64,000 nucleotides of DNA from Thermoplasmatales archaeon (GTDB lineage Archaea > Thermoplasmatota > Thermoplasmata > Thermoplasmatales > Thermoplasmataceae), in assembly GCA_016806715.1 (NCBI GenBank), contig CP060531.1, forward strand, positions 62,001-126,000, in the 5' to 3' direction. Made by a program: the position numbers and the translations under genes. Below, piece after piece: positions 40,974 through 63,482 of the stretch (position 1 is the first letter of the stretch; every line of letters starts with the position of its first letter). The notes under the pieces are model-generated. The model was not told the origin of the DNA. It saw only the letters and a list, made by a program, of their open reading frames with translations, and did no database searches.

Positions 40974-41246
40974 TCACCTTACCTCCATGGCACGTGCAAT
41001 TCCTCTCTTCACTAACAGTAATACCAGCCTTGGGTCCAGGTAAACGATGTCCTGCCCCCTCAGATGCCAGTCCCGGTCTGTCCATGCCACATTGATATCT
41101 GAGAGAACCAGCACCAGCTGGTAGCTGTCAAACCGTGATACCGCTGGCTGAAGAGGAGAGGGAGTTAGGTACACCAGGTGATCAGAAGGAACAGTTTTTC
41201 TCTCCTGGCTGATGACGGCAAAGCGGTCCAGGGAAGACTGGATCAT
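40974..41246 (-). CDS. Small unknown element protein
   Basis: 90 residues with alternating strands and hydrophobic stretches (YQLVLVLSDINVAW, RLVLLLVKRGIARAM), so probably a compact alpha/beta fold. The start ATG overlaps the stop of the 34-residue frame as ATGA. No family recognised. Confidence 0.48.
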   Translation of the reverse strand: MIQSSLDRFAVISQERKTVPSDHLVYLTPSPLQPAVSRFDSYQLVLVLSDINVAWTDRDWHLRGQDIVYLDPRLVLLLVKRGIARAMEVR

Positions 41247-41347
41247 GGCTGATCCTCTCCTCGGTCTTCATCCGGGCCACACGTGAGCTCGATCTCGATG
41301 TCAGCGCCGGAAAATGATAGTTTCGATCCCTTGGTGTATGGCATCAT
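41243..41347 (-). CDS. Acidic 34-residue peptide in operon
   Basis: A short frame whose ATG overlaps the stop of the PolX-like gene and whose TGA overlaps the next ATG, so it fills the gap exactly. The sequence is acidic at the end (GPDEDRGED). The two ATGA junctions are the main evidence that it is translated. Confidence 0.45.
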   Translation of the reverse strand: MMPYTKGSKLSFSGADIEIELTCGPDEDRGEDQP

Positions 41348-41961: not shown

Positions 41962-42155
41962 AATTGCGCCTCCTTGATCGACTGGACCTCCATGACCGGG
42001 ACCTTGTAGACGGATCCGCTGTCAAGTTCCACTGCAAGGCGCTTCATGCCTATGCTTACCAGGATCCCGCGATGCGTCCGCGTTCCCGATGCCGTCCTGT
42101 ACTGGATGCTTACCATGCTGCCTTTCAGCTGCATGATCCTGGAGCGGGGGATCAT
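41958..42155 (-). CDS. Small beta-barrel-like protein (SH3/Sm-type look)
   Basis: 65 residues, almost all strands: MVSIQYRTASGTRTHRGILVSIG, then RLAVELDSGSVYKVPVMEVQSI. The spacing of glycines resembles small SH3 or Sm-type barrels, though no family can be named. It starts by an ATGA overlap with the helicase gene and ends by another into the PolX-like gene, so it may be an accessory factor of the replication set. Confidence 0.48.
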   Translation of the reverse strand: MIPRSRIMQLKGSMVSIQYRTASGTRTHRGILVSIGMKRLAVELDSGSVYKVPVMEVQSIKEAQL

Positions 42156-44251
42156 TTCTTGTCACTCCTCAGAATTGCCTCGAACGCCAGCATAGCGATA
42201 CTCTTGCTCTTGACTTGGACAAAACCCCAATCTTTCATAAGATTCATGAGGGCAGTGTGCCTTACAGGATCGCTCGGTTCGATTACCCCGATCCAGAATT
42301 TCTTATCAACCATGCCAGGTCCGGATTTAGGATCAGGATGATATTCAAGATCCGTGAGCTGCTTGACAACCAGGTAGCCAGCTTCAATGGATATGGGCTT
42401 AATGGCCTCAGCTGCGATCTCTCCTGGTTGTTCATGGTCCTTGCCCTCTGCTGAATTAACCGGGACATCGGAATTGACGGGTTCGGGTTGTGATTCTGGT
42501 CCTTTTGGTTCTGGATCGGGAGCTGAATCCATTTGCAAGTTGGAACTGCTCTTTATTTCTTGCGGAGCCTTATTTTCAGGGTTTTTAGAATCGAAATCGA
42601 CCGGTTCCAACTTGTGTGCGTGATCCTTTATACTTTTTCTCGCGGGATCGCGCGTAACGGTTAAGGACTCATGTTGGAACTGCCCGTATCCGTTTCCACG
42701 GAAGCCGTTTTCCTGGCTTTCCTGTGATTTTGTCTCGGTTCCACCTTTGAAATGATCCTGGTATTCGCCCCCTCTTTCTTCATCCTCTGGATCCTCCGAG
42801 ACAATGAGCGCGCAACCCAGAAATTCGTATCCCCCTTCCTTTCCGCGGTGATATTTTTTCTTGGGATATGTCCGTCCAAAATTTTTCTTGAATGTCTGTG
42901 CAGCAATCGGTGTTATCCCCTTTTCGCCGCACCAACTCTCGAACGCCTCGTACGCTTTATTCACTTCGACCGCTGCACCTTCTACGGGTTCGGTGCATTC
43001 GTCAATGAAATTTTCAACTGGATCCGCGAGCTTCTCCATCAACTCGATAGTTGATTCAGATGTTAACTGGCCTGGAAACACCCACCCGCGGTCAATAAGC
43101 GCGAACAACACTCTAACCAGGAGGGTTGCAATCTGGTCACTCTCCTTACTCACTATCTCCTTGTCCACGTTCGTTATTAAGCGTCCCGGCTTCTTGCTCC
43201 TGGTTACTACGGGCAACCAGCGTTCATTGGCAGCGGTATCATCAACCGGAAAAATAGGGAGATTTCCTATTACAATCCCCTTTGCTTTCGATGTACGATC
43301 CTGCGCTTCCCTGCCCTTTGGTTCCACGTTTAGTACGTCCTGTCCAAACAAATTGTTGAATACGGACCAATCTTTTACCGTGCCGCGCTTGAATTTCCTC
43401 TTCAATTCAAAATCCACGAGCACATTTTTACCCTCGATCCCCGTGAATTGAAACCTATCGGCCGTTAATATTCTGGCAAGGTTGAATGAACCAAAGCCAT
43501 GCGTAAAAATACCCTGAAGGACCCTTCCGAGCGTTCCTTTCCCTACCCTTTCACGCCCGAATATCCCCAGTACTTTATGGACTGGAAGATCCGGGTATAA
43601 GCAGTATCCAAAATACGCCAGAATCAACGGTACGTCCCGGGGGAAGAAAACCTGATTAAGCTGTGTCGTGAATAGCGGGGTATCCAGCAGTGTTATTTTC
43701 TTGTCAAGGAGGTTTGCGTTGACTTGGTACGTGTAAAATAATTCAGCGTTAAATGGTGCAAGCGTTCTCTTGCTAAGATCCAAGAGCCCGTTTTTGAACG
43801 GGATAAATCCTGGAGGGTTCATTTCACTGGCATCGGTGAATGTGGTCCGCCTGATCATTGCGAGGACTTCATTTATCTGGCTTTCCTTGGGGCCGTTGTG
43901 CAATGCACTCTCGATTCTGCCGGAAAGGTTCTGCACAAAATCGTTTCGCTGATTTCCGGGAATGGTTTCAATTTGGGCCTGCATTTCCCGGTACATCGCT
44001 ATAAAAAGTGTATGCGCGTTGGCGCGTACATATTCCTCGGCCCGCTCGTGAATCTGCTCATTGAAATACCACACTGCTTCAAGGTCCGTGTCTAATTCTT
44101 TGATTGTTTTAAATTTCCCTTTTTTAGTCAGTTCATTGTACACGTCCATTGCCCCCGGAAAGTATAAGCCCTCAGTATCGCCGTTCATAGCCGCTTCCCT
44201 GAACTTCTTTTTTGCGTCCTCTGCCGTGTCTTTGTTATCATTGTTTCCCAT
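42152..44251 (-). CDS. D5/phage P4-type superfamily 3 helicase
   Basis: Replicative helicase of 699 residues. The N-terminal region ends in the D5-like PFKNGLLDLSKRTL motif (residues about 151-164). The ATPase core has Walker A GRERVGKGT (Lys238), Walker B NVLVDFEL and the SF3 motif C in KGIVIGNLPIF, where the Asn is the sensor. A winged-helix-like segment follows (about 420-470). The last 200 residues are low-complexity, rich in E, S, P and K, then a short folded end. It directly follows the primase gene, as in many plasmids and viruses. It begins one base after the primase stop. Confidence 0.87.
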   Translation of the reverse strand: MGNNDNKDTAEDAKKKFREAAMNGDTEGLYFPGAMDVYNELTKKGKFKTIKELDTDLEAVWYFNEQIHERAEEYVRANAHTLFIAMYREMQAQIETIPGNQRNDFVQNLSGRIESALHNGPKESQINEVLAMIRRTTFTDASEMNPPGFIPFKNGLLDLSKRTLAPFNAELFYTYQVNANLLDKKITLLDTPLFTTQLNQVFFPRDVPLILAYFGYCLYPDLPVHKVLGIFGRERVGKGTLGRVLQGIFTHGFGSFNLARILTADRFQFTGIEGKNVLVDFELKRKFKRGTVKDWSVFNNLFGQDVLNVEPKGREAQDRTSKAKGIVIGNLPIFPVDDTAANERWLPVVTRSKKPGRLITNVDKEIVSKESDQIATLLVRVLFALIDRGWVFPGQLTSESTIELMEKLADPVENFIDECTEPVEGAAVEVNKAYEAFESWCGEKGITPIAAQTFKKNFGRTYPKKKYHRGKEGGYEFLGCALIVSEDPEDEERGGEYQDHFKGGTETKSQESQENGFRGNGYGQFQHESLTVTRDPARKSIKDHAHKLEPVDFDSKNPENKAPQEIKSSSNLQMDSAPDPEPKGPESQPEPVNSDVPVNSAEGKDHEQPGEIAAEAIKPISIEAGYLVVKQLTDLEYHPDPKSGPGMVDKKFWIGVIEPSDPVRHTALMNLMKDWGFVQVKSKSIAMLAFEAILRSDKK

Positions 44252-45178
44252 TTATTCGCCTCCCAGTGCCTTGACTAGTGCTTCGTAACTCAATCCATAT
44301 TCATTATGCGCGGCCGCTATAACCTTCCAGAAGAGATCACCCCTGATCTTCCCTGACGTGCTTTCCTCACAAGCAATAACGCCGGTTGAAACCGCGATCC
44401 ACTGCAATGGCCCTCCGCCGGTCCCGTGCCTGAAGCAATGCCACGCGTTCTGCTCTATGTCCACCCGAAAATTACTTCCGGTTTCGCTGCCGTGTATTGG
44501 ATGCGATCCCTGGTATGCAGACCCGATCTGCTTGAAGCGAGACACGTCGATAAGATCCTTAAGCAGCAGCGATAAGGGAGCATGTGCGCTCTTGTGCGCA
44601 GATTCAGGGGCCTTGGCCAGCTTCTCGGTTCCAACGGTAAACGGCCTGAAAACTTCCAGCAGCTCGGCCTTGGCGACAGTCACCGGAGGGACCAGGTGCA
44701 GCAGCTTACCCCCGTAAACGTTGCCATTGGGATGGATGGATCCAGGGCCGAGGTTCTGCCCTCCTTTGCCCCGGATGTATGCGCCATCGACAAGCGGAAT
44801 GTTTCCGATCGGAGCATCCTTTATCAGAAATACTTCACAATAATGTCCCGGTGTCCCCGTATTCCACTCTAAGGTATCACCAAGAGACAACGCTGCCTTC
44901 CTGATCTCTGCCGTATCGCCGTCAATAGCGCAAGACAGGCCGGATGGATGCGTTAAGCCCCAGTTCCCCCCGTTCTCAATGTGCCTGAGGACCACTTCGC
45001 TATTTACAGCATAGTTATTCCTGGATGTCCAATCAAGCTCGAGCGGGATCTTCTCATGCGCCTTGATCAGTATGGTCCTAGTCCTTGGGGCATGTTTATG
45101 CAGATGTGCCAGGGTCTTCTTGGCAATGTCGATCCTTCCTTGAGAGGAAATCCTTATTTCTCCGTTTCCATTTATCAT
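44252..45178 (-). CDS. Bifunctional primase-polymerase (PrimPol, AEP superfamily)
   Basis: Starts and copies DNA for replication of the element. About 308 residues from the ATG at 45178, which has GGGGGT nine bases upstream (a frame nine codons longer is possible). The AEP active site is in LSCAIDGDTAE (D-x-D), and the characteristic LGPGSIHPNGNVYGG follows. The C-terminal part holds IHGSETGSNFRVD and WHCFRHGTGGG, a primase-linked pattern found in archaeal and viral PrimPols. The helicase lies next to it. Confidence 0.82.
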   Translation of the reverse strand: MINGNGEIRISSQGRIDIAKKTLAHLHKHAPRTRTILIKAHEKIPLELDWTSRNNYAVNSEVVLRHIENGGNWGLTHPSGLSCAIDGDTAEIRKAALSLGDTLEWNTGTPGHYCEVFLIKDAPIGNIPLVDGAYIRGKGGQNLGPGSIHPNGNVYGGKLLHLVPPVTVAKAELLEVFRPFTVGTEKLAKAPESAHKSAHAPLSLLLKDLIDVSRFKQIGSAYQGSHPIHGSETGSNFRVDIEQNAWHCFRHGTGGGPLQWIAVSTGVIACEESTSGKIRGDLFWKVIAAAHNEYGLSYEALVKALGGE

Positions 45179-45224
45179 TGAGTTATTACCCCCTTCAGGG
45201 ACCATTGGCGTGGTCCCTTTATTT

Positions 45225-45398
45225 TCATTTTTGACTGGTCTCCTCCGCTATCTGAAGCAAACGGAGCCAGTCCCCGGCCTTAGCGAGGTAGTCCTCTCTG
45301 CTGATTATATCGGGCTGGCTTACTACCACATCCCGAAAGGGGCCGCCAATTTTCAACGCCTTTGACTTCAACGGCCTTAGATCAATCTGATCATTCAT
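45225..45398 (-). CDS. Small unknown protein in replication operon
   Basis: 57 residues from the ATG that overlaps the stop of the AbrB-type gene. A short helix-rich peptide (DVVVSQPDIISREDYLAKAG, then WLRLLQIAEETS). The open frame is longer upstream, but there it overlaps the AbrB gene in another frame. No family recognised. Confidence 0.5.
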   Translation of the reverse strand: MNDQIDLRPLKSKALKIGGPFRDVVVSQPDIISREDYLAKAGDWLRLLQIAEETSQK

Positions 45399-45586
45399 TG
45401 CTTGGCCTCCTTCTCCGGGAAAACAACTTTCAGGGACCCATCGCTCAGTAGCCTTACTGACACTGAATCGCCGCGCACGATTCTTTTTGACTTCACGAGA
45501 TAGGCCGGGATAACCAAATAGCAACTATTTCCGATCCTTCTTACCATTTCCTCTGATTCCGAAATTTCTGTTAGTACTATGTCCAT
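45395..45586 (-). CDS. AbrB/SpoVT-like DNA-binding regulator
   Basis: 63 residues with the swapped-hairpin fold of AbrB/MazE proteins: VRRIGNSCYLVIPAYLVKSKRI and GDSVSVRLLSDGSLKVVF. It is the first gene of the leftward operon, and the 129-bp gap to the rightward winged-helix gene holds the promoters of both. A role as repressor of the replication operon is a reasonable inference. Confidence 0.75.
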   Translation of the reverse strand: MDIVLTEISESEEMVRRIGNSCYLVIPAYLVKSKRIVRGDSVSVRLLSDGSLKVVFPEKEAKQ

Positions 45587-45715
45587 ACAGCCTAATGTTT
45601 TAATACAGTATAAGTGACATCTTGCTTAGACCTATGTGACGAATTTTCAAAAAACATTTGGAAATAGCTGCTCTCACCAAAATGTTTATACAGATGTGTT
45701 TATTACCATATCATC
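45587..45715. promoter_or_regulatory. Divergent control region of the element
   Basis: Between the AbrB-type gene and the winged-helix gene. TTTAATACAG (45598-45607) and TTTATACA (45682-45689) are A/T boxes suited to leftward and rightward starts. Both flanking genes encode DNA-binding proteins, which suggests mutual control. Confidence 0.45.
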
Positions 45716-46615
45716 TTGACAGGATATGAAAACAGGAAACCGAAGCTGGCCAAGGCCCAGATACTCAAGTATCTGTTTGAGATGGACGCGTTAGCGGTCC
45801 CGGTAAGCAGAGATGCAATCATACGCGGACCAGCAGGGCACGGTTCAAAAGCTATTTACCGGCACCTCGCGGATCTGGAACATGAGAAGATAATAAAGAC
45901 CACACATCCAAAAGGGGGAAAGATACTCTGCAAGCTCAACGGGGACCTCCTTTCATTAGCTAATGTGCTTGATTATTGGATCAGTGGTCCTGAGAAAATA
46001 AAAGAAGCCGTTGACCTGGCATTTGCGGAATGTTTCACCTCCCCGTTTGGTGATTTTCTCTATGCTGGCTTTAGACATTTAGGGGTTATTCATGACGGAT
46101 CGTTCCTCTCCCTAAGAACAAAAATATATGAGCTTGTAAAAAAAGGCATAAGGCCATCTTTCGACAAGGATGAGCTCGAAACGATAAACTGGGTAGCTGC
46201 GGAATTAAGGGGGCCAATGGACACGTTCTACAAACTCATGTACATGGCTCAGGTTCTGAAACTTTACGAAATGCCGGACGAAAATTTTAACACACTCGCT
46301 ATTTTTGTTTGTACGGTTCTAAATCTCGACGAGCGGCATTTCTTTGCGCGCCATGCCCAAGAAGCTGCCACAATTGGTCCTGACGCAATATTTTTATGGG
46401 GATATTCGGTGCTCTGGAGAATAGCGGAGATTTCCAGTCACATGACCGATAGGGAGAATGGAATGCATTTCCTGGGAAAAGTAACGGAGAGGGAGCAACA
46501 GGTACGCGAAATAACATGGAAGAGAGAGGGCATGCAACTATTAACAGTCGATGAATTTACAAAGTCCCGGGTCTCCCGGGTCCTCGAGCGACCCTACGAG
46601 GCATGGTCACGGTAA
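45716..46615 (+). CDS. Winged-helix protein with helical C-terminal domain
   Basis: 299 residues from a TTG (an ATG ten bases on is out of frame). Residues about 12-80 form a winged-helix pattern: QILKYLFEMDALAVPVSRDAI, KAIYRHLADLEHEKII and then a basic wing (PKGGKI). The rest is helical with conserved aromatic residues, no catalytic motif. Likely a regulator that acts on the shared control region at its 5' side. It is the outermost gene before attR. Confidence 0.62.
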   Translation: MTGYENRKPKLAKAQILKYLFEMDALAVPVSRDAIIRGPAGHGSKAIYRHLADLEHEKIIKTTHPKGGKILCKLNGDLLSLANVLDYWISGPEKIKEAVDLAFAECFTSPFGDFLYAGFRHLGVIHDGSFLSLRTKIYELVKKGIRPSFDKDELETINWVAAELRGPMDTFYKLMYMAQVLKLYEMPDENFNTLAIFVCTVLNLDERHFFARHAQEAATIGPDAIFLWGYSVLWRIAEISSHMTDRENGMHFLGKVTEREQQVREITWKREGMQLLTVDEFTKSRVSRVLERPYEAWSR

Positions 46616-46719
46616 ACGCAATGACTTTTATCTCGTAGCAAATTCGATTAATATATAATTCAGACAGGGTTAATTAGTCTATTGTGGGTCTAATGATAGG
46701 AACATACACATACTGAATA

Positions 46720-46732
46720 CCGGCAGACCCGT
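46720..46732 (+). repeat. attR, 13-bp direct repeat
   Basis: CCGGCAGACCCGT, identical to the 3' end of tRNA-Arg(TCG) at 34327. A GGGTCT at 46686 upstream of it may be part of a decayed tRNA copy, but the middle does not match. Confidence 0.78.
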
Positions 46733-46738
46733 AAATGT

Positions 46739-46951
46739 TCAGGGGATACAGACAACACATTTTTTTGCTGATATCCCGCAAAACATGATGTAGTCCAATG
46801 GAATCTTATTTTCAACTGCTTCTATTTTGAACATTTCAACTTTCGTTGAATAGGGATTCATAGGATTGAAGAACTCTTGAATATCTTTCACAATTTCCGG
46901 ATTGATAAATATACCGTCAGCATCACAATATGCAATGTATCCTTTTGGTTC
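46739..46951 (-). pseudogene. Fragment of a family B DNA polymerase (motif C region)
   Basis: A 70-codon frame between two stops with no start. It contains GYIAYCDADGIFINPE, like the YxDTDS motif C of family B polymerases (here DAD), and further on EMFKIEA...MFCGISAKK, like the GISAKRY segment that follows in viral and archaeal PolB. The upstream palm and downstream thumb are missing. It lies 6 bp outside attR, so it may be the relic of an older element at the same tRNA site. Confidence 0.5.
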
Positions 46952-47106
46952 CTATGATCCTTCACCCGGCTAAAATCTGCTTTTACATTCATTCAAGGAA
47001 GCTAATCAACCTGAATATAACGGTGATCACCCAATCTTTATCAATTGTTAAGGTAACGAAACACAATTCTCTGCTGATGCGCCACTATAATGTAATGTAA
47101 TTTATA

Positions 47107-48264
47107 ATGAATACTAACTTTAATAAGCCAGTAGATATTATATTTGCAATGAAGGATGATTCAACCAGAATCGGAATCTCAACCGTGGATGGCGCCTATA
47201 TCTTGACTTCGGAAGACAGGGTATCGTGGAATATGACTCAACCTGTCCTGAAGGGAGAAAGCGTCAACTTCATGGTAGCTTCACCTACTGGTAGGCTATT
47301 TGCGTCCACGCTGTCCGATGGCATGTTTCTCTCCGATGACGGAAAGAATTGGAAGAGGTCGAGCAGGGGTCTGACAGTTAATAAGGTCTGGAGCGTGGAG
47401 CAGGACGCTCATGATGAGGCAACAGTCTATGCTGGAACACAGTATGGGCACATGTTCAGGTCGCATAATTCAGGTAATTCGTGGGAGGAAGTAACCGGGT
47501 TATACGAAGCTCCACACAGGAATGAATGGGGCATTGACTGGGGATTCGGGACAACTGGTCTGACCGTTCATACTATTAAATCTGATCCTAACAGGAAGGG
47601 GAGGCTGTATTTAATCGCCGCCGGGAATGGGGCATACAGGTCAGATGATTCAGGGAACACGTGGGAATCCCTTCGAAAAGGTATCGTTGAAAGTTGTCCC
47701 GTGAGTTTCAAGGATGAGGGATCCGGAAAGGACAAGAAAACTGCAGCAGATTTAAGGAAGGAACATCTGCAGTCAGTGCATGTTTGTGCCCACAAGCTAG
47801 CATTATCACCCAGCAAAAAGGACGTTGTATACCAGCAGAACCACTGCGGTGTATATTCAACAAAGAATGCTGGCGATAAATGGGATGACATCAGTCCAAC
47901 AAATGAAACAAGACACGGATTTGGCATTACAGTTACAAGAGGAAGCAATGACACAATTTTCACGATTCCAGCGTACCAGACTGGGTGCAATATGAAGCAT
48001 AACTCCTGTATTCAGGGACAATTGTCTGTGATGAGATCCAAGGATGAAGGAAATACGTGGGAGCAATTAACATCAGGTTTGCCTAATAATGTGCATAACT
48101 GTGTTCTTAGGGATAGTGTAACAAGCGACGACTTGAAGAATCCAGGTGTGTATTTCGGTACCACGACAGGAGAAGTATACGCCTCGACCGATGACGGGAA
48201 CACCTGGACAGCCATCGCAAAAAATTTGGGAAGGATCCAGGGCGTGTCATACCTTAGGAATTAA
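47107..48264 (+). CDS. BNR/Asp-box beta-propeller protein
   Basis: 385 residues with at least six Asp-box (BNR) repeats of the form S-x-D-x-G-x-x-W: SDDGKNW, SHNSGNSW, SDDSGNTW, STKNAGDKW, SKDEGNTW and STDDGNTW. They are spaced as in a six- or seven-bladed propeller. A central insertion with HVCAHKL and NHCGVYS and a later CNMKHNSC adds cysteines and histidines that could bind metal. No signal peptide was seen, so it is probably cytosolic. These propellers occur in sialidases and VPS10-like proteins; the catalytic residues of sialidase are not evident. Confidence 0.75.
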   Translation: MNTNFNKPVDIIFAMKDDSTRIGISTVDGAYILTSEDRVSWNMTQPVLKGESVNFMVASPTGRLFASTLSDGMFLSDDGKNWKRSSRGLTVNKVWSVEQDAHDEATVYAGTQYGHMFRSHNSGNSWEEVTGLYEAPHRNEWGIDWGFGTTGLTVHTIKSDPNRKGRLYLIAAGNGAYRSDDSGNTWESLRKGIVESCPVSFKDEGSGKDKKTAADLRKEHLQSVHVCAHKLALSPSKKDVVYQQNHCGVYSTKNAGDKWDDISPTNETRHGFGITVTRGSNDTIFTIPAYQTGCNMKHNSCIQGQLSVMRSKDEGNTWEQLTSGLPNNVHNCVLRDSVTSDDLKNPGVYFGTTTGEVYASTDDGNTWTAIAKNLGRIQGVSYLRN

Positions 48265-48835
48265 CTTTATGCGTTCAATATTTGCAGGGCAGGATCCTCT
48301 AACAATTAAAAACCTCAAATAATTCCAGCATTATTTACTGATGGCTGCAACGATATGATTGTTAGCGTTGGTTATAATGCAAGAATCAGGAAAAGGCCAG
48401 CTCTCCCTGTTTGAGGAACCGATTTGATGGTTGTATCAAGCCCTTCAATTATTTCATTCCAAAAGCACTCAAAAACTGAGAGTGAGGGCTAATCTATCTA
48501 AATCAATACAAGTTTTCATGAAAACTGATCACTTTCCTCAGTTTAGAATGATTTACGAGGGGAAAACTAACTCGAAAGGCAGTTCCCGGATTAATTAACA
48601 GAACTGGCTGAATGGCTGAATTTGTGCAGACCAAACCAGTCGATGGTGGATTATTCACTCTTTGCATAAAATTTACTTGTAGTCGGCAAAGGATATGCCC
48701 TCATATCCTGACCAAATAAAGGACATTTTGTATGACTCAGAAAAATAATCTTCAACGTCTGCCAAGTTTTGAGGAGGATTTCAACTACCATAATAAGACC
48801 AGAATCTAAAGAACTCAGCCATATACTGCGTTCAA
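48265..48835. other. Intergenic stretch with no clear gene
   Basis: About 570 bases. A 17-codon frame at 48377-48427 (ending QLSLFEEP) looks like the tail of a lost gene. Nothing else was recognised. Confidence 0.35.
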
Positions 48836-52363: not shown

Positions 52364-52640
52364 TCTTACGTTACAGTTTTTCACCGCATTTCTTGTAGTA
52401 AACCCCGTCAGATTCCTTATACATCATTTAGCTACCGCATATCATGACTTTACCGCTATGCTTTAATTTCATGCATTGCACTTCTGGATAAGCTTAGCCC
52501 GCTTGTGGTAGATGCAATCAAAGAACCAATCAAATTAGCACTATAACCTGATGAAATCCATCTCGCCACTCTCCTTTATGTCGATATTTTGTTAAAATAA
52601 CAAAATCAATTCTGAAACAGCATAGCTTCGCGAAGCCTGT

Positions 52641-52727
52641 CTATTTATAAATGATACCTTACCTGGGACATTTCTCCCATGATCCAGATATCGGCCACCA
52701 AAATTACACAAAATGCGGGATAATATC
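52641..52727 (+). repeat. ~90-bp dispersed repeat, copy 3
   Basis: CTATTTATAAATGATACCTTACCTGGGACATTTCTCCCATGATCC-type sequence followed by ATATCGGCCACCAAAATTACACAAAATGCGGGATAATATC (quoted in parts). It lies at the 3' side of the HsdR_N-like gene. Confidence 0.68.
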
Positions 52728-52850: not shown

Positions 52851-53642
52851 CTAATGAAGGTGAAACTGCCTTTTTACCACTATAAACCTTATTTCATAGT
52901 ATAAGGCTACTATCGGAAATGCTGTGAAACAAAGTCCAGACACAATAAAAATCGGGCTAAGTATAGGAATAGTCTTTCCACCTGATCCGTTATCGATTGC
53001 TACTACTATCACAGCGAAGAAAAGAGCTAGGAGGGTGAACAAGAGGTATCTGCGCCTTTTTCTCTTGAGTTGTTCTGCTATCTTTTTACCATCTGCCATT
53101 TGTCTGTTATTTCTATCAATTTCTGCTATTATTGGCGATGTTATGGAGCTATATTTCTCGGAACTTATACTTCCAGAAATATTTGAACTCGTGTAGAGTT
53201 GTAGGAGTTCAGGAAAATATTCTTTTTTTAGTAAATCAAACATACCAGGGCTTTTGCCCAGAGACCAAGATACCAATGGTTCCTGACGGTGAGAATCCAA
53301 AATGTGAAGATCTTTTCCATTGTATAATACACCATATAAAAGCGTAGGGTCAAGCCTCAAGTAGCTAACAATCTGATTCCATGCGCTACTTCCTGGAGAT
53401 ATATCTATCCCAGGTTTCTTAGTTTCCATTGCAAATTTGTTGTTAGAACCGACGACATAGTCTACTTTCAAGACAATAGTTCCTGCTTGAATAGGAACTT
53501 CATACTGGGTATCACCTGCTGAGTTCCAACCAAGAGATTCCAAAAGCCTGCTAACAACTTTTTCTCTAAATTCTCTCTCGCTGCCAAAAACTGTCGTTGA
53601 GCCTTTTGTTAGTACTTCGATTGTTTCAGCGCTGACTGCCAT
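52851..53642 (-). CDS. HsdR_N-like nuclease domain with two membrane helices
   Basis: 263 residues. The N-terminal 130 residues match the PD-(D/E)XK fold of type I restriction HsdR_N proteins: FREKVVSRLLESLGW, YEVPIQ, VDYVVG with the catalytic Asp, and FAMETKKPG with E-x-K. Two hydrophobic helices follow (about 198-217 and 228-250). No helicase or methylase lies nearby, so it is not a classic restriction enzyme. A membrane-tethered nuclease in a defence-rich region suggests an anti-element role. Repeat copies 3 and 4 flank it. Confidence 0.72.
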   Translation of the reverse strand: MAVSAETIEVLTKGSTTVFGSEREFREKVVSRLLESLGWNSAGDTQYEVPIQAGTIVLKVDYVVGSNNKFAMETKKPGIDISPGSSAWNQIVSYLRLDPTLLYGVLYNGKDLHILDSHRQEPLVSWSLGKSPGMFDLLKKEYFPELLQLYTSSNISGSISSEKYSSITSPIIAEIDRNNRQMADGKKIAEQLKRKRRRYLLFTLLALFFAVIVVAIDNGSGGKTIPILSPIFIVSGLCFTAFPIVALYYEIRFIVVKRQFHLH

Positions 53643-53774
53643 TTCATACCCCCAGTGGTTTTATGAAGTTGGTTATGTTCCCTAAGTGGAGAAAGTATTT
53701 TAATATAAGAATTCAAGCTTTTTGTCTCACTTTTTAGGTTGCTTAACTTTCTTCATCATAGCGTTCCCGATGTT

Positions 53775-53863
53775 GTGTATTAATAAAGGAAATCTAGCTT
53801 CGAACACTTCTCTTATAATTCTGGTATCGGCTAGCTGAATTACACAAAATTCGGGATAATATC
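53775..53863 (+). repeat. ~90-bp dispersed repeat, copy 4
   Basis: TGTATTAATAAAGGAAATC, then GAACACTTCTCTTATAATT, then CTGGTATCGGCTAGCTGAATTACACAAAATTCGGGATAATATC in parts. It lies between the HsdR_N-like gene and the kinase-HD gene. Confidence 0.7.
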
Positions 53864-53904: not shown

Positions 53905-56517
53905 CTAAAGTGCCTCTTTTAGGACATTCAAAAATTCATTCTTAGTGGGAAATTTCTGAAAGCTAATATCGGGATGCATGTAAAGTCTAGGGAACAATGA
54001 AGAGACCACCCCTTCTTTGTTGCCTGTCAATAGGGATTCGGGTACAATCTCTCGTGAACTGAAGGTATCCGGTTCAACAAGGTATAGCGATTTACCTAGG
54101 ACCCTTTCAGGCGGCAAATCTATAATAAATCCAATTTTTCGAGCTAGTCTTCCGTCTATACCTTTATGTGTAATTTCGTACTGGTTGAATAATAAATTGT
54201 TAAGATTATCTGTAAATTGTCTAATTTTTTCAACGCTTTGGGTTCCCGCTTTAGTAAGGTCTCGTAATTTATTGGTGATTTCTTCCACTCGTTTAATGTC
54301 TCCCTGTGGTTTCCAATAAGAACTGCTAAGTTCGAAAGCATTGTGATAATGCTTTCTTTTGAGTATATATTCAATTAAGATTTTAGCTGAATCATCTGTC
54401 AAGACTTTATACATCATGTCTAAAAATAAAATATCAGAGTACACAAGATGAAAACTCTCTGGATAGATTTTCTCCAGTTTTAAACTTGTGAAGTAACTTT
54501 GTGAGAAGACTATCTCCTTAACTTTTGCCTGCAAAGAATCAATTCCCTCTGGGCCCTCAATGATCAGTGCGTTCATCAGCATTGCTTTAAAAGAACGGAC
54601 AGTTTTATGCCAATATACTCTTTCAAACATATTCTCTCTCGCAGACATTAAACTTCTTGCAGCTAAGATACCTTTAGAAGTAACACCCAACTGTATATGG
54701 CCGGTTTGACCACTTTTATCAGGGATTATGGCGGGCCGCAAACTCAATACCAGGCGATCAACCTCAATATTCGAAGGGTAACTTAACCCTAAATTTGCTG
54801 CGTCTCTCTGGAGATAATCTAGTTTATCAGCATCTATAGAACTTGAAATTATGTTCCTAAGAATATTCACGATTAAATCGTTTGAACCTTCAGCTTCTTT
54901 GGAGGATTCGAGATACCTGTCAACTTGATCAGCTACTGTGCGCCCCCAATTTTCACTTACAAGATCATAGAGGGATCTTATTTCTTCATCGTGCTGCTCA
55001 TATCTATACTTATACAACTGTTGTGACAGAGTTTCATGCTTAAAATTGGAAAGACTTGAATCTTCTAAATCGTGCGCGTGTGGATACTGGCCTATGTCGT
55101 GAAAAAGTGCGCCCAAAGTTGCGGCTTGAACTTCTTCTATTTGGGCTAAACATCTAAAAAGAGGGTCATCTTTCTGTTCCCAAAGTGCCTTAATGTACTG
55201 AATCGAGTAATAGTATGTGCCCATGGAATGTTCTAAGCGAGAGTGTCTTGCCGAAGGATATACGTATGCTATCATCCCTAGTTGAGAAACGTTGGCGAGC
55301 CTAGAGAGAAATATATGGTTGTAAAGTTTTCTGACCCTAGTCGTAAATGGCACATCAAGTTCTCCTATTCTTATAGTCGAACCTAGTTTACTTTGCCACT
55401 CGGGCGCAATTGTTGCCAAGTTATCAATCCGTAGCTTTTGAAGATCTCTTTTCATTTCTTTCCAACAACTGTATTGCTCGAGATATTGTAATGATCGAAT
55501 CATTTCCTTGTTGAATCTATCCGGTATATTCTGAAAAGCTAGCTTATCTTCATAAGAATCCACTCCCTTTAAACGCAAGGCAATTAATTTTAGGTAGTTT
55601 ATAATATAATTTACGTCTTGATATAATTCCGCCCTAGCATCTTCTGGCTCCTTTGCCTTTTCCTTAAGGTAATTTAATGTATCCTGATAAATCAACAGAC
55701 AAGCCTCTAAGGTTCTACCGAGCGCGTATTGCTCAATTCTTAAGTAAGATATTTCTCCTTCGTTCAGGGTAAATACTGCGTCTTTTGACGCGTACTTGTG
55801 GATGAATTCTCTAAGTTTTGGTAAGGCAAAATCCCAAGTGAAGCCTATTTTATCAACTGGATCTTCTTTCAGATATATCCTATGCGAATAACCAAAATCA
55901 ACTAATTTTGGGCTATTATCCTTTACTAAAATATTTTCAGGTTTAATGTCACAGTGATATACTTCATTCTTGTGTAAATACCATAAAACATCTGCTAACT
56001 GCTCAAGGATTACACTAAAATCGTTTATATGCTTAATCACAGTATCTGGGGTCGGTTCAGATCCAATAAGTGTTTTACACCATTTCTCTAAGTCTAGGCC
56101 ACCTGGAACAAACTCTTCCACAGTAGCCAAATAATTTATCTCATCGTTCTTACAAATAAGGTCCTTCTTATCAAAAATCTGAATCAAATTAGGGTGATAG
56201 AGTGAATTAAGAATAGAGTACTCCTCTTGTAGCATTCCAACTGAATCTTTAAGAGGGCGGGATATCTTTAGAGCATATTCCTTTTTATTGGTTCTGTCAG
56301 TCATCTTTAGGACTATTCTGGAACCAGCAACTGCTATACACTCATTAACCTCATATTTATCTGCAATTATCAACTCATAAGTTTGGGTTATTAATTCCTC
56401 AATTTTGACCCGTTCCTGAACCCAAGCCTCTGAATACCCTTTCTTCTGGTATTTATCTTCTATTTTTTTCAATGTTCCTTTTAGGGAACGTTCATGGACC
56501 ATTTTTGCATCACCCAA
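53905..56517 (-). CDS. Ser/Thr protein kinase fused to SAMHD1/dGTPase-type HD phosphohydrolase
   Basis: 870 residues in two enzymatic parts. The kinase (about 50-350) has Lys84 in YALKIS, the catalytic loop HCDIKPEN (Asp190) and DFG at 207-209. The HD domain (about 400-700) has H425/H430 in RHSRLEHS, the His473-Asp474 pair in LFHDIGQYPH, SIDADKLDYLQRD around residue 562 and YWHKTVRSF, the pattern of dNTP triphosphohydrolases. The kinase could sense a trigger and switch on nucleotide depletion. It overlaps the partner gene by eight bases. AT-rich like the other accessory genes. Confidence 0.82.
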   Translation of the reverse strand: MGDAKMVHERSLKGTLKKIEDKYQKKGYSEAWVQERVKIEELITQTYELIIADKYEVNECIAVAGSRIVLKMTDRTNKKEYALKISRPLKDSVGMLQEEYSILNSLYHPNLIQIFDKKDLICKNDEINYLATVEEFVPGGLDLEKWCKTLIGSEPTPDTVIKHINDFSVILEQLADVLWYLHKNEVYHCDIKPENILVKDNSPKLVDFGYSHRIYLKEDPVDKIGFTWDFALPKLREFIHKYASKDAVFTLNEGEISYLRIEQYALGRTLEACLLIYQDTLNYLKEKAKEPEDARAELYQDVNYIINYLKLIALRLKGVDSYEDKLAFQNIPDRFNKEMIRSLQYLEQYSCWKEMKRDLQKLRIDNLATIAPEWQSKLGSTIRIGELDVPFTTRVRKLYNHIFLSRLANVSQLGMIAYVYPSARHSRLEHSMGTYYYSIQYIKALWEQKDDPLFRCLAQIEEVQAATLGALFHDIGQYPHAHDLEDSSLSNFKHETLSQQLYKYRYEQHDEEIRSLYDLVSENWGRTVADQVDRYLESSKEAEGSNDLIVNILRNIISSSIDADKLDYLQRDAANLGLSYPSNIEVDRLVLSLRPAIIPDKSGQTGHIQLGVTSKGILAARSLMSARENMFERVYWHKTVRSFKAMLMNALIIEGPEGIDSLQAKVKEIVFSQSYFTSLKLEKIYPESFHLVYSDILFLDMMYKVLTDDSAKILIEYILKRKHYHNAFELSSSYWKPQGDIKRVEEITNKLRDLTKAGTQSVEKIRQFTDNLNNLLFNQYEITHKGIDGRLARKIGFIIDLPPERVLGKSLYLVEPDTFSSREIVPESLLTGNKEGVVSSLFPRLYMHPDISFQKFPTKNEFLNVLKEAL

Positions 56518-57502
56518 TTATTATATCTTTATAGAAGCTAAGCCAGGGTTTGACAATTAAAGAATCATCGGCCCAAGCATTTCCCTTAATAATTTTTGGA
56601 CTTTGACCTTGTGCTAAGGAAACAAGTTGATGAGATTTCATTTGATTAACTAACTCTTTAGTTATGATGTTTCGGTCTTTAATTTCCTTAAAATACGGAT
56701 CCCATTTGGAAAACTTATTGTAGAAAGAATCGAGGCGCTTGAATAACTCAATGTAAGATATGCCATTTTTATTCTCCCAAAGTTTACCTAAAATCATCGC
56801 TCTTACAATCTCTACAGCTCTTAAAGGTGACCCATAAATACCATCGGAGTCATACAGAAATTTTCTAATGTGTCCTTCCACTAATTTTAGCTCTTTGGGA
56901 ATATCTGGTACACCCTTCAGTAGATCATAAAAATCACCACTTCTTGGTTCCATAACCGATGCGTCAATTGCATAACCTAAATTGATATCAAAAAGTTCAT
57001 CAAAACTCTCCAGAGTACTGGTTATATGAGGAATCCTCGAACGTGGGAAATATACGTTTAGAGAAGTTTGTTTTATGCTAACGTCCTTCAAGGTCTCCAC
57101 TGAATTAAGAAAATATTCGCCCTTGGAACCATCATAAAATGCTGAAAGAGCCGCCCCTCCTTTAATGGTCTTTCCACTTATTGTTCTTATATCTGAAATT
57201 TTCTGAGTCCCAATAACCGATTCCTGTGGAGTTGGTTTTTTCAACACGTAAACAGACGTTATGTCATCTATGCTTTTTGTCTCTCGTATACCATCTATTA
57301 TCTCGTGAGCAACAATCGGGCCATCTAGCAGTGAAAGCAAGACTATCCCTCGATCGTTAGTAACATTTGTCTCTTTCAGAAGTCTTGAAAAAAGGGATTT
57401 TGAGGCGTAGGCGTTTTTCAGAGCCAAGTCATTTGGATCAACATCTTCTACCTCCTCTCTCTGTTCATCATTTATTAATTTATGTATTCGTATCCCTCTC
57501 AA
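56510..57502 (-). CDS. Unknown partner protein of the kinase-HD operon
   Basis: 330 residues, soluble, with no firmly recognised family. The N-terminal half has GIVLLSLLDGPIVAHEIIDG and VYVLKKPTP, then GKTIKGGAALSAFYDGSKGEYF; these strand-loop pieces recall phosphoribosyltransferase-like folds but do not match one well. The C-terminal half is helical with WENKNGISYIELFKRL. It is transcribed first and overlaps the kinase-HD gene by eight bases, so the two are translated together and probably act together. Confidence 0.6.
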   Translation of the reverse strand: MRGIRIHKLINDEQREEVEDVDPNDLALKNAYASKSLFSRLLKETNVTNDRGIVLLSLLDGPIVAHEIIDGIRETKSIDDITSVYVLKKPTPQESVIGTQKISDIRTISGKTIKGGAALSAFYDGSKGEYFLNSVETLKDVSIKQTSLNVYFPRSRIPHITSTLESFDELFDINLGYAIDASVMEPRSGDFYDLLKGVPDIPKELKLVEGHIRKFLYDSDGIYGSPLRAVEIVRAMILGKLWENKNGISYIELFKRLDSFYNKFSKWDPYFKEIKDRNIITKELVNQMKSHQLVSLAQGQSPKIIKGNAWADDSLIVKPWLSFYKDIIIG

Positions 57503-57900
57503 TTAAAACCCCCCGTCCTCTCCATATAAGCATAAAATAGAATTCCAAAAAGATCTAATAGGTATCGTTTACTGAATATCACTAAAATCTACTAAGGTTC
57601 TGAAAATAAAAACTTTATCATTAGAATGTGATAATAATTTTGTAACTGAGGGAAAATAACATGTTTTAAATCTATTTGACTCTCTTCAACATTGTGTGGG
57701 TGAAAAGATTTTACGTGCTCACACGAGAGATAATGAGACATTGCGTTTTATTGGCATCATTGGGTTTACCAAAGGATATAATAACAAAGTCTCAAATTCT
57801 ATATTAATTCCAACATTTCCAGAGTAATTTAAAGTTCTTTGGCTACCAACAATAAACTGAAGAGAACCATCTATTTCAATAATACCAGTTACTTCCACAG
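57503..57900. other. Non-coding stretch upstream of the kinase-HD operon
   Basis: About 400 AT-rich bases. The first 60 should hold the leftward operon promoter. No gene recognised. Confidence 0.4.
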
Positions 57901-58069: not shown

Positions 58070-58139
58070 CTTGAAAACACCCCTCTCATGATCTTGGTAT
58101 CGGCTACAGAAATGATACATAATTAGGGATGCTATCATC
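58070..58139 (+). repeat. ~90-bp dispersed repeat, copy 5 (partial)
   Basis: GAAAACACCCCTCTCATGATCTTGGTATCGGCTACAGAAATGATACATAATTAGGGATGCTATC-like sequence (parts). The left TTTATAAA part of the repeat is missing. It lies between the AbrB relic and the transposase relic, upstream of the kinase-HD operon. Confidence 0.55.
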
Positions 58140-58406: not shown

Positions 58407-59192
58407 TTATTTGCTGCCACCCTCCAGAAAATTTATTATTTTGACTCCATAATCGTTGAAGTATACGATATTTGGCTCATGCCTTTGTGCTCTGTTTCTG
58501 ATCCTAAACTCTACTTCATTTGGATCTTTGTTGTCAAAAAGAAGTAGACCAATCCCAAATAAAATGCACAAGTTTTCTAGTGCTTCAAGACCATTAGCGT
58601 CGGAGTCTTCTGGGACGGCAATATATGATCTGTGGGAAAAAAGCAAATAAGATGCAGCTTGACCAAAAGCTGTTATCAATGTATCATATCCTGTATCTAC
58701 TTTTAATTCACCGGCTACTAACTCGGGATCCTTAGGAAAGCTTGATGTGATGCTTACTCTATAATACCCGACAACATCTGGAGTACTCCATTTGTGCTGA
58801 ATTCTAGAATTTCCATAGGGTTTCGCAACCGTGCATTCAGTAAGATCGTCCCTTAGAAAATTTGCAAATTGTTCATAAAATTCCTCTTCACGGTGCCTTT
58901 TCTGCTCTGGCTTGGGTTCTTCAACATTTTTACTGCGTAAATTAGGGCTTGTTTCATACTTCTTTGCAATATAAATTCTAGGAACTTGAGAAAGTTTGTC
59001 TTTGTAATCTCTATGTTTTCTAAGGTCGGAAATCTGGGTATAAATAGTATTTAGGTTGAAACTTGGGTTCTCTTTACTTATCATATCTACAAGCTCAGAA
59101 TATCTTATACCAGATGGCCTCTCCTTAATTATTTCATAAGCTCTCTCCCTAATGCGTCTGGTTACGCCCTTAGTACTTTCTTCCAACCTCAA
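58407..59192 (-). CDS. HTH domain fused to PD-(D/E)XK nuclease-like domain
   Basis: 261 residues. Residues about 8-75 form a winged-helix-type domain (YEIIKERPSGIRYSELVDMI, then NTIYTQISDLRKH). From about 105 a nuclease-like fold follows, with STPDVVGYYRV giving the Asp and ELVAGELKVD giving E-x-K, then AFGQAASYLLFSHRSYIAVP. Proteins with this design occur in restriction and defence loci, some as sensors without cutting. It starts a leftward group whose other members lie upstream at 59275-59859. Confidence 0.65.
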   Translation of the reverse strand: MRLEESTKGVTRRIRERAYEIIKERPSGIRYSELVDMISKENPSFNLNTIYTQISDLRKHRDYKDKLSQVPRIYIAKKYETSPNLRSKNVEEPKPEQKRHREEEFYEQFANFLRDDLTECTVAKPYGNSRIQHKWSTPDVVGYYRVSITSSFPKDPELVAGELKVDTGYDTLITAFGQAASYLLFSHRSYIAVPEDSDANGLEALENLCILFGIGLLLFDNKDPNEVEFRIRNRAQRHEPNIVYFNDYGVKIINFLEGGSK

Positions 59193-59859: not shown

Positions 59860-60624
59860 GTTATATGTTGGCTATCCTGGTCTTACGCTACTATTATACC
59901 CATACATCGCACAATTTATATTATTCCTTTCCTAACTAGGAGTGAATTAAAGTGTATAAAGAAAATTCTCAAAAAAAGGAGCCATTGAGCAGAAAGAATA
60001 TAGCTGCCAGGTCAATCCTAATCCTTGTTCCGCTTATTGCTGCTGCATTCTTAATTGGCCAACTTGGCATTAGTCATTCCACTCCGATTAGACAAAATGT
60101 CAATTTATCATTTTCTCAAAATGCTAATGAAACTGTAACCCTGACTGGTGACCAAGTTAGTGCAAGTCTAGGTTCACCAATATCAAATACTCTGTCTGAC
60201 TATAACGAGATAGTCGCAAATTCTACGGGGGGCCCATATCTACCTATGATTCTCACTCAACTCACTGCCACTAACAGCAACGGAATTCCTGTGACAGTGG
60301 AAACGTATACAAATCAAACAGATGCAGAACTTGAGAAGCCTGCTACTTTTAATACCGGAAACATCATCAACGTGTTAAGTGCAACTACTACTCATTTCCC
60401 CTACATAAATTCTTTCAGAGCACAGTACGATTCTGGTTCCATGCAGCTGACTAATGGTCTCTATAATGGTTCTCTGTCGGTACAGATACTAAGCAACAAT
60501 AATTACCAAGAACAATTGCAAGAACCCCAGAAAATTATCACAAATGTTGTAAGCCCATATTATTTTGACATAAATCAATCGCTGGCCAAAGGCGCTACAA
60601 TATCAAATCAATACATGGACATTG

Positions 60625-60632
60625 ATCTATTT
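60625..60632 (+). repeat. Target-site duplication, left copy
   Basis: ATCTATTT, directly before the IS, repeated exactly at 61898-61905. Eight bases is the usual length for ISL3 elements. Confidence 0.85.
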
Positions 60633-61897
60633 GGATCTCTTGAACTCTTTGGGGGTAAGTAATATACCCTCATTCATTTACATTTCATGAATTCTGAGGA
60701 ACTGTTCAGGAGACTTCTAGGTTTAGAGGAGCCGTGGATCATTAAGGAAATAAAGTTCGATCACCAGGAAAAGAGGGTGGATATCTTCATAGATTTTCCG
60801 AAGGGATCTAGATTCCCATGCCCTGTCTGTGGAATACCATATGGAGTACACGACACTGAGGAACGCACATGGAGGCACCTGAACGTATTCCAGTATCCCA
60901 CATACGTGCATGCAAGGGAACCCAGAATAAAATGTGATCAGCATGGAAAGAAGACCGCTGATCTGCCATGGGCAAGAAAGGGATCGGGATTCTCGCTGCA
61001 CTTTGAAGCAATGGTTGTGGAGATGGGCAAAGAGATGCCGGTATCTTCAGTTGCAAGGATTGTGGGAATCAATGAGGATTCTGTCTGGAGAATCCTGAAA
61101 CATTATGTGGATGAGGCCAGGAAAGATCAGGATCTCTCTGGCATATCAGTGCTGGGAATAGACGAATTCTCCGTGGAGAAGCATCATGTCTATGTTACTC
61201 TCTTTTACGACATAAAGAACAGCAGGGTCATACACATCGAGGAGGGAAAGGATTCCGATGTTTTCATGAAGTTCATGCAGAAGAATCCATTCCTTGATGT
61301 CAGGAACATAGAGCACATCACAATGGACATGTGCCCGCCATACATATCCGGCGCTAAACGGTATTTTCCGGATTCATCAATTGTCTTCGATCACTTCCAC
61401 GTCATAAAGATGATGAATGATGCACTTGACAGGATCAGGCGTAAGGAGTCAAGGGAGAATGAAATCCTCAAACACACAAGATATGACTGGCTGAAGAATT
61501 TCAGTGATCTCTTACAAAAGGAGAGAGATCGCCTCATGTCCGTGAAATCCCTTGATCTGCAGACATCGCATGCATATCATTTCAAGATCGCCCTGCAGAG
61601 ATTATGGCAGGTCAATGCAGGCATTGCTGAATCATACCTGAGGAAATGGATATCATGGGCATCCCGATCAAGGATGCCGGATATCATCAAGCTTGGAAAG
61701 ACCATAAATCGGCATCTTGCTGGCATAATGGAAGCCATACGATCCGGAATAAATTCCGCTGTTGTTGAGGGACTGAACAACAAGATCCGGACAGCATTCA
61801 AGCGTTCTTATGGGTTCAAGGCCCATGAGTACAGGGACACGATCATCTATCTGGTGGCAGGAGGTCTGAAATTACCCCCACAATGTTGAAGAGATCC
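60633..61897 (+). mobile_element. ISL3-family insertion sequence, 1265 bp
   Basis: Complete element with imperfect terminal inverted repeats of about 27 bp: GGATCTCTTGAAC at the left end and the complement GGATCTCTTCAAC at the right, both followed by TGGGGGTAA; 22 of 27 positions match. It has one transposase gene and the 8-bp target duplication ATCTATTT. The exact duplication and intact ends point to a recent insertion. Confidence 0.9.
60687..61889 (+). CDS. ISL3-family transposase
   Basis: DDE transposase of 400 residues. The N-terminal zinc-binding part has CPVCG (about residues 45-49) and a second Cys/His pair in IKCDQHGKK. An HTH segment (VSSVARIVGINEDSVWRIL) follows. The catalytic acids are likely in LGIDEFSVEKHH, ITMDMCPPY and the late VVEGLNNKIRTAFKRSYGF, all diagnostic for ISL3. 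The full length suggests an active enzyme. The stop lies inside the right terminal repeat. Confidence 0.93.
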   Translation: MNSEELFRRLLGLEEPWIIKEIKFDHQEKRVDIFIDFPKGSRFPCPVCGIPYGVHDTEERTWRHLNVFQYPTYVHAREPRIKCDQHGKKTADLPWARKGSGFSLHFEAMVVEMGKEMPVSSVARIVGINEDSVWRILKHYVDEARKDQDLSGISVLGIDEFSVEKHHVYVTLFYDIKNSRVIHIEEGKDSDVFMKFMQKNPFLDVRNIEHITMDMCPPYISGAKRYFPDSSIVFDHFHVIKMMNDALDRIRRKESRENEILKHTRYDWLKNFSDLLQKERDRLMSVKSLDLQTSHAYHFKIALQRLWQVNAGIAESYLRKWISWASRSRMPDIIKLGKTINRHLAGIMEAIRSGINSAVVEGLNNKIRTAFKRSYGFKAHEYRDTIIYLVAGGLKLPPQC

Positions 61898-61905
61898 ATC
61901 TATTT
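61898..61905 (+). repeat. Target-site duplication, right copy
   Basis: ATCTATTT, identical to 60625-60632. Confidence 0.85.
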
Positions 61906-62463
61906 TCTCCAACAGGTCAGCAAGCCATATTTAATATGAACATTTCAAACTATGAATTTTCAGGAATATTCATCGCTAACAACCAATACCTTGAGGGGAA
62001 TCTGAGTTACAATCACTATTTAAGCATTGAAGATTTTACTTCACTCACTTTGGCATTTATAAGCTATGGTATGAATGTAAAGATCCCTTATGACTATGTG
62101 AGACAGCTTCAAGTCTCATCTACATCAACTCCCTTTTCAACTTTCAATACGACCTCAGAGAAATTATACATGACCAGCAATCAAGGAGAAACTGAGGCAG
62201 TTAACGGGAATGTCAATTTTACTGCCCCTGATATTATAACTCTTCAGGAATCTGGCTACTACCCAAATATGACGTCTAAATTGGAACTGAGTTACTATAT
62301 TCAAGCTAATGAGGCGATGGTATATAACAACGGACACTACGTCTACAATGCGACCCAGTTAAGATACGGGACTGAAGCAAGAAACTGGATGTCACTTGCA
62401 GCGGGTGCCTTTATCAGCGTTGGAATGGCAGAGTTTATTGCACTTATTAGAAAGAAAGATTAG

Positions 62464-62875
62464 CGCCAAGGAAGTAAAAATTCCACGAATAATCTAAGAT
62501 CAACCTATTCTTTTTATTTAGAAACGGTTTGAGGATAGGGTTCTAGTACGTTACAGGAAGTGACGGTCCAGATGTAACAATCATGCAATCATCTGATGGT
62601 TTTTACACGTTTTAGATGATAAAGATATCTCTGAACAACTGGAAAGCGTGGATGAGTCACCACAAGGTAAAGATATTAAAAGTGGGAAGCTTAGATCAGC
62701 ACCCAACAGAAAGGTGAAATCCTAACAATTGGGGAAGAAGACAGGAAAGAGATAAGGTAGCCAATAGAGAGATGGCCTTAAGCGATATGGAATCAAATAG
62801 GAACTACCAAGTATACTGATCATAAGACGTAAAACTTATAGACTTCCAAGAAGTGTATATTTGGAGAAGAAAAAT
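62464..62875. other. Non-coding stretch before the ubiquitin-like operon
   Basis: About 400 bases with no gene recognised. The right end holds A/T boxes (AAAACTTATAG near 62831 and GTATATTTGG near 62855) and a GGAG ribosome-binding site at 62863 for the next gene. Confidence 0.4.
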
Positions 62876-63115
62876 ATGGTCGAGACTGTGATCGTGTTTA
62901 TTGGAAAAAAGAAGATAGAATCAGGGAAGGAAACAACAGTTGGTGCCTTATTGGCACTGGCAGGTTTCTCCCCGAGTGAATATATCCTTGAGCTGAGGGA
63001 GGGTGAAGGTGGCCCTGTCATTAACAAATATACCGAGCCAACAGAAAAGTTGGAATTGAAAGAAGGGGAACATTTCACCACCAAATACATCGGGCCGATA
63101 CAGCCATCTGATTGA
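62876..63115 (+). CDS. Ubiquitin-like protein (multi-ubiquitin-domain family, single copy)
   Basis: 79 residues from ATG 62876, seven bases after GGAGAAG (a TTG at 62861 is also in frame). The beta-grasp pattern of the prokaryotic ubiquitin-like families is seen: VIVFIGKKKIESGKETTVG, then LLALAGFSPSEYILEL and LKEGEHFTTKY. It does not end in Gly-Gly (the end is GPIQPSD), so it would need trimming or would act uncut. It is followed after one base by an E2-like gene and then a JAMM-domain gene, the gene order of the bacterial ubiquitin-like conjugation operons. Confidence 0.72.
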   Translation: MVETVIVFIGKKKIESGKETTVGALLALAGFSPSEYILELREGEGGPVINKYTEPTEKLELKEGEHFTTKYIGPIQPSD

Positions 63116-63116
63116 C

Positions 63117-63482
63117 ATGTCTGATGATAACTCAGCCGAATCCTTCGAAAGTGAGGTAAAACTACGAGAATACAGTTATACAGCTACCACGGTATCTGGT
63201 AACGTCGCTTTTATTATTGAAAATTATCCAATTTTGTACGGCAAGAACTCAGGAAAGCAAATTTCAATAGGTATTGTACTGCCGAAAGATTATCCTTCTG
63301 CGGCCCCTGCTGGTATTCACATAAAGTGGCGACAGGACTTACAAAACAAACCTACAAACATTGTGAAAAGTGAGATGGGAAGTGGGTGGGAACGAATGAG
63401 CCGCGTAGTTCAGAACTGGGTCCCGGGGCGGAGAAGGGCAGAATTGTTTTTCGCTCAGGTGGATAAATGGCTGGAAGCATAG
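63117..63482 (+). CDS. E2-like (UBC-fold) protein lacking cysteine
   Basis: 121 residues. The core reads VAFIIENYPILYGK, then ISIGIVLPKDYPSAAPAGIHIKW in parts, with the LP-x-x-YP-x-x-P turn typical of UBC folds and of prokaryotic E2-type families. The protein contains no cysteine at all, so it cannot form the E2 thioester. It may be an inactive adaptor like eukaryotic UEV proteins, or the fold may only bind the ubiquitin-like partner. It starts two bases after the ubiquitin-like gene and its stop abuts the JAMM gene. Confidence 0.66.
   Translation: MSDDNSAESFESEVKLREYSYTATTVSGNVAFIIENYPILYGKNSGKQISIGIVLPKDYPSAAPAGIHIKWRQDLQNKPTNIVKSEMGSGWERMSRVVQNWVPGRRRAELFFAQVDKWLEA

Follow-up and report, generated by a model that had tools for sequence, protein, structure and literature searches.

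The window analysed here is a 64,000-nucleotide stretch (G000:C1:62001-126000) of the genome (G000) of an acid-loving Thermoplasmatales archaeon, a single contig of 1.96 Mb whose Ta1207-family genes and relatives place it in the Thermoplasmata; on the minus strand of the window lie two adjoining genes, the second of which (positions 53905-56517; termed here KHD) encodes a kinase–HD fusion protein. The KHD frame comprises 870 codons without an internal stop when read from a TTG at 56517, or 865 residues when read from an ATG at 56502. The first gene of the pair (56510-57502, minus strand; termed here the partner) starts with TTG and encodes a 330-residue protein that matches no family. The ATG at 56502 is the likelier start of KHD, because a Shine-Dalgarno-like GGTGAT (56509-56514, minus strand), recognised by direct reading, precedes it with a spacer of 6 nucleotides and overlaps the partner's stop codon. 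The eight-base overlap between the two genes that had been reported for this locus therefore holds only if KHD begins at TTG 56517, whereas with ATG 56502 a gap of 7 nucleotides takes its place; either arrangement implies that the two genes are coupled, tightly so across the 7-nucleotide gap. A TATA-box-like CTTATAT (57524-57530, minus strand), also read directly, precedes the TTG of the partner by about 25 bp, a spacing that would be typical of a leaderless archaeal transcript. A frameshift or an assembly artefact is an unlikely source of KHD, given its 870 stop-free codons and the occurrence of a second such fusion in another genome.

The kinase domain of KHD (residues ~70-227; 55837-56310, minus strand), which was delineated using Pfam and alignments to the PDB entries for DCLK1 and DAPK, matches PF00069 over residues 69-227 (E=2.9e-19) and possesses the VAIK lysine, HxD and DFG of eukaryotic-like protein kinases, its kinase residues being K84, E98/E99, H188-C-D190, K192, N195 and D207-F-G209. 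A match to the 'ALG' segment of alpha-F can be discerned by eye. The domain had been described as a full Ser/Thr kinase, and this is accurate for the catalytic residues (K84, HCD and DFG) but too generous for the domain as a whole: the sequence of its glycine-rich loop (IAVAGSRI) is degenerate, an APE motif could not be seen, and the Pfam alignment covers only positions 15-160 of the 263 in the model. The best PADLOC matches of KHD are to the kinases PD-T4-6, MAD6 and MkoA (E-values of 1e-19 to 1e-14); those to MAD6 and PD-T4-6 reflect generic kinase similarity.

The HD domain (residues ~395-664; 54525-55333, minus strand) was delineated by its match to PF01966 (residues 427-539, E=5.2e-5), by PDB alignments and by a 29-row alignment of KHD with 28 relatives. 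In phmmer searches against the PDB it matches 2q14 (E 1e-21), 2hek, 2o6i (which we take to be EF1143) and chains of SAMHD1; the Pfam and PDB matches thus bear out, in coordinates and in residues, the predicted union of a kinase and a SAMHD1-type HD domain within one protein. The metal ligands H430, H473/D474 and D564 are in place when KHD is aligned with its 28 relatives and with the PDB chains, an arrangement on which the original prediction had made itself depend, and so are the catalytic dyad H482/E485 (at +9/+12 from the HD motif) and the second-shell histidine H494. In all, the positions conserved for metal binding and catalysis that are kept in the 29-row alignment comprise R427, H430, H473, D474, H482, E485, H494, D562, D564, D567, Y568, R571, D572, R627 and Y635, and the substrate-side residues are intact (K565, Y568, D572, R627 and Y635). 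The exception is the HD+4 position, at which KHD has Q477 and each of the 28 relatives has a histidine (H210 in SAMHD1). Since every conserved metal or catalytic position other than Q477 is kept, catalysis by this domain is plausible; since Q477 replaces an otherwise invariant histidine, the activity or the substrate of KHD may be altered. When the HD part alone was searched, the PADLOC dGTPase model PDLC02374 gave no match at E≤1 and the sole PADLOC match was to the HD domain of Cas3 (E 0.0034).

The partner is, as had been predicted, a genuine orphan: no homologue was found in Pfam, PADLOC, NCBIfam, PHROGs, the PDB, 390 genomes of the phylum, plasmids or viral contigs, with no match at E≤10 in Pfam or at E≤0.1 in PADLOC, and none to an antitoxin, STAS or HTH family in the family searches. 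One partner-like hit within the same genome (G000:C1:1713534, E 3.4e-5) runs antisense within a dehydrogenase-like gene and is attributed to chance. AlphaFold models of the partner (from its single sequence; pLDDT 33) and of KHD (from six sequences; pLDDT 40.5) were too poor for fold comparison.

The pair is located between PyrD and Trm56, an interval of 40.5 kb here versus 12.4 kb (G001) and 11.6 kb (G003) in two genomes of the same genus, and gene-by-gene comparison with these reveals two insertions. The first is an integrase/D5-helicase element that extends from a tRNA-Arg at 34264 to ~48.8 kb. (Within this element, at 34264-48800 of the window, are a probable integrase at 34400 and Prim-Pol/D5-helicase genes at 42152-45205; a search over 80 kb for another copy of the tRNA 3'-end, as an att site would supply, found none.) The second is a 20-kb segment (50232-70132, past the end of the window) that carries KHD and is absent from both G001 and G003, in which other genes, amounting to 4-6 kb, occupy the site: G001 has a transposase there as well as genes resembling TnpB and a regulator, and G003 has debris and a DUF72-like gene (names assigned by eye). 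The GC content of KHD and its partner is 0.37, versus 0.50 for PyrD. In a tree of HD proteins the separate HD gene of this genome (G000:C1:1759678) groups with the genes of its own family (100/100), and KHD forms a long branch outside. Because it lies on a variable segment, differs in GC content and falls outside the housekeeping HD clade, KHD is an accessory, acquired gene. The original prediction would have been undermined by a housekeeping context; what was found instead is an accessory, island-borne distribution, which is a mark of defence systems, and a housekeeping HD paralogue that is a different gene.

Mobile elements have left traces on both sides of the pair, as had also been predicted. 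A remnant of a dispersed element (53754-53863) lies directly behind KHD, with sister copies at 52618-52727 and 58076-58136; this remnant is 61-110 nucleotides long and has nine matches in the genome. One copy lies behind each of three minus-strand units, namely the gene at 52851, the KHD pair and the gene at 58407, which look as if they were brought in as cassettes. A solo ISL3-like terminal repeat (57681-57701, plus strand) is found 180 bp upstream of the partner, and a full ISL3 element (60632-61898), the ends of which are exact and of which the genome has four identical copies, appears to split a gene, the halves of which lie at 59952-60632 and 61899-62463. The description of the flanking genes as membrane nucleases suits at most one of them: the product of 52851-53642 (minus strand) has a nuclease-like N-terminus, based on a weak HsdR_N match (E 0.044), and C-terminal membrane segments (KD19 max 2.57), whereas that of 58407-59192 (minus strand) has neither a strong membrane segment (KD19 max 1.78) nor a family match; judged by eye only, its N-terminus resembles a winged helix and it may have a PD-(D/E)XK-like core. 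Further along, a Bub-like operon begins on the plus strand (62861-63482) with a ubiquitin-like protein followed by an E2 (PF14462, E=3.8e-8) and continues beyond the window to L024:2892 (G000:C1:124861-126892 overall), where its JAB–E1 part (L024:1483-2892) has as its best match Citrobacter BubCD (9ea4, E=3.5e-19); the operon is absent from the two same-genus genomes. Bub operons are regarded as putative immune pathways for which phage protection has not yet been shown (PMC13373217). Adjoining this operon (L024:4039-5345), a gene for a zinc-ribbon protein that is weakly TIR/ThsB-like (L024:4039-4785, E 0.0076) overlaps a winged-helix-like gene.

When the two fusions were used as a profile against 293 genomes of the phylum, kinase–HD fusions were found in 2, namely the present genome and G017. 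The G017 fusion (L012:2414-5236, 940 residues) is 24.5% identical to KHD over residues 95-642 (E 2e-26) and carries further active-site changes. Both proteins are very long branches in the HD tree and they have no neighbouring gene in common, and may represent separate fusion events. Seven nucleotides past the G017 fusion is a small gene with a transmembrane segment and weak GAF similarity, which is followed by an overlapping nucleoside hydrolase gene (PF01156, E 1.5e-60). The latter is an accessory gene, being matched in only 9 of 61 genomes of the family, outside G017 mostly at ~25-31% identity (at most 31%); its product would degrade what a dNTPase releases, and the two enzymes together would make depletion harder to reverse. 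In G011:C1 the last match of a broken relative of KHD (L013:6566-10900; 59.6% identity over 57 residues and 33% over 114) runs up to the first of the ~56 repeats that make up a CRISPR array. Two HD reading frames that were considered as further fusions (806 residues in G197 and 760 in G236) show, when read, no kinase upstream of the HD part, and a kinase match in Poribacteria (L009) carries the kinase only. Plasmid and phage searches returned stand-alone HD proteins or stand-alone kinases and no fusion, and no description of a kinase–HD fusion was found in literature whose coverage mostly excludes subscription journals.

The word 'system' in the original prediction is not supported: no homologue of the partner turned up in any of the collections searched and the neighbours of the G017 fusion differ, so that no recurrent association of KHD with a partner was found. 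For the broader proposal of a candidate new defence locus, the island location and the intact metal ligands speak in its favour, the gene pair was not found to recur, and the antiviral role is suggested by context, that is, by the island, by the remnant beside a CRISPR array and by the nucleoside hydrolase.

One of the closest known systems is Clover, which consists of the CloA dGTPase, a proven antiphage effector, and the CloB nucleotidyltransferase (PMC12265719). Like the KHD pair, Clover is a two-gene unit in which an HD enzyme of the SAMHD1/Dgt superfamily is accompanied by a dedicated partner, and, judged by residue spacing, CloA and KHD appear to share the HD motif, the metal ligands and the H+9/E+12 dyad (H126/E129 in CloA, at +9/+12 from H117-D118; PMC12265719). 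CloA, however, lacks the kinase that is fused to KHD; CloB is a nucleotidyltransferase of the Pol-beta type, of which the partner, matching no family, shows no motif by eye; and the HD domain of KHD, unlike that of CloA, belongs to a COG1078-like branch. SAMHD1 shares the HD active site and is antiviral through dNTP depletion, but it has a SAM domain where KHD has a kinase, a separate CDK as its kinase, and H210 where KHD has Q477. Stand-alone defence dGTPases (Tal et al. 2022, as represented in PMC12265719) are of the same superfamily and probably catalyse the same reaction, but KHD fails the PADLOC model for them (PDLC02374) and has a fused kinase and a partner gene. PD-T4-6, MAD6 and MkoA have in common with KHD a eukaryotic-like kinase domain, to which the similarity is confined; within the part that aligns, none of them has the HD dNTPase domain that KHD carries. 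CapK–CapS immune regulators pair a GHKL kinase with a STAS-wHTH protein (PMC13373217) and are not matched either, the KHD kinase being of the Pkinase type and the partner having no STAS or HTH match. The closest full HD sequences to KHD are COG1078-like housekeeping proteins of Thermoplasmatota, which are present in nearly all relatives and which, unlike KHD, are stand-alone, kinase-free, mostly 370-515 residues long and form a conserved, separate clade. The best reading of these comparisons is that KHD would work like Clover or SAMHD1 without being either a known defence dGTPase or a member of Clover, which its fused kinase and non-nucleotidyltransferase partner argue against.

KHD is tentatively viewed, with a little less than even confidence, as an acquired, accessory dNTP triphosphohydrolase that is switched by its own kinase and that most likely acts against viruses or plasmids through dNTP depletion. 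From what is known of the family, the HD domain would cleave dNTPs to deoxynucleoside and triphosphate; the kinase, acting in cis by phosphorylation, would hold the HD domain off until infection; and the partner might be a dedicated sensor or restraint, as CloB is for CloA. In human cells, CDK phosphorylation acts in trans on SAMHD1 and controls its antiviral activity. The depletion of dNTPs is an antiviral strategy common to animals and bacteria, the central problem of which is to keep the enzyme off until infection; the solutions include two nucleotide signals in Clover and CDK phosphorylation in mammals. A natural kinase–dNTPase fusion would allow phosphorylation control to be tested on a single gene; it would also be, as far as this search could find, the first such candidate in Thermoplasmatota, the defence genes of which are little studied. 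A stronger proposal is that KHD typifies a new class of immune protein in archaea, with a eukaryotic-like kinase and a SAMHD1-like dNTPase in one polypeptide; the animal CDK–SAMHD1 circuit, which acts in trans, would then be hard-wired in cis and triggered through a sensor protein. This proposal is doubtful.

Some of the same observations would suit a stress-signalling enzyme without an antiviral role, whose kinase senses a cellular cue and whose HD domain tunes the dNTP pool, for instance during growth arrest, in a lineage-specific manner. Housekeeping roles are known for dNTPases of this superfamily, a Caulobacter enzyme among them (PMC12186491), and the KHD kinase does not belong to a type specific to defence, its PADLOC matches being generic; the patchy presence of the fusion (2/293 genomes), its variable island and the remnant beside a CRISPR array run counter to this explanation, which is judged rather unlikely. 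Judged unlikely as well is an addiction unit resembling a toxin–antitoxin pair, in which KHD would be a toxin that depletes dNTPs or phosphorylates host proteins, and the 330-residue partner its antitoxin, with no sensing of viruses. The order of the genes (small, then large), their tight coupling, the orphan status of the partner and their place among insertion-sequence remnants are all consistent with such a unit, as is the fact that each of the accessory HD proteins that viral contigs encode has a small gene (128-170 residues) before it, but 330 residues is large for an antitoxin and the partner matches no antitoxin family.

Finally, the HD domain could act on some other phosphate ester--nucleic acid, as the Cas3 HD domain does, or NTPs or a signalling nucleotide--with the kinase as a separate effector. 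That Q477 is unique among the aligned relatives, that PADLOC matches for the HD part are limited to the Cas3 HD and that the G017 fusion has additional active-site changes are in keeping with this; against it, the similarity of KHD is clearly to the 2q14/SAMHD1 branch and the substrate-side residues K565, Y568, D572, R627 and Y635 are kept; this explanation is judged quite improbable.

Two further sets of loci were encountered. Convergent to the fusion in G017:C20 (L012:6998-11840) are genes for another HD protein, a MinD-like ATPase that resembles PDC-M28B (1.6e-16), a 484-residue protein and a wHTH-methyltransferase similar to MAD2, the MTase of MADS (5e-18); the region is a possible unrecognised conflict locus. 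Viral contigs encode SAMHD1-like HD proteins that stand alone, and a gene of 128-170 residues lies directly before each of them; in the archaeal genome G197 a gene of 180 residues instead follows the HD protein (the HD and small-gene loci are L034:5484-7506, L036:2943-4947, L051:1995-3964 and L045:5067-5609). The two small proteins that were scanned have no Pfam match. A Y..GP(Y/W)S-like motif is common to three of the small proteins, two of which are 28% identical, and these genes possibly encode dedicated regulators of accessory HD enzymes.
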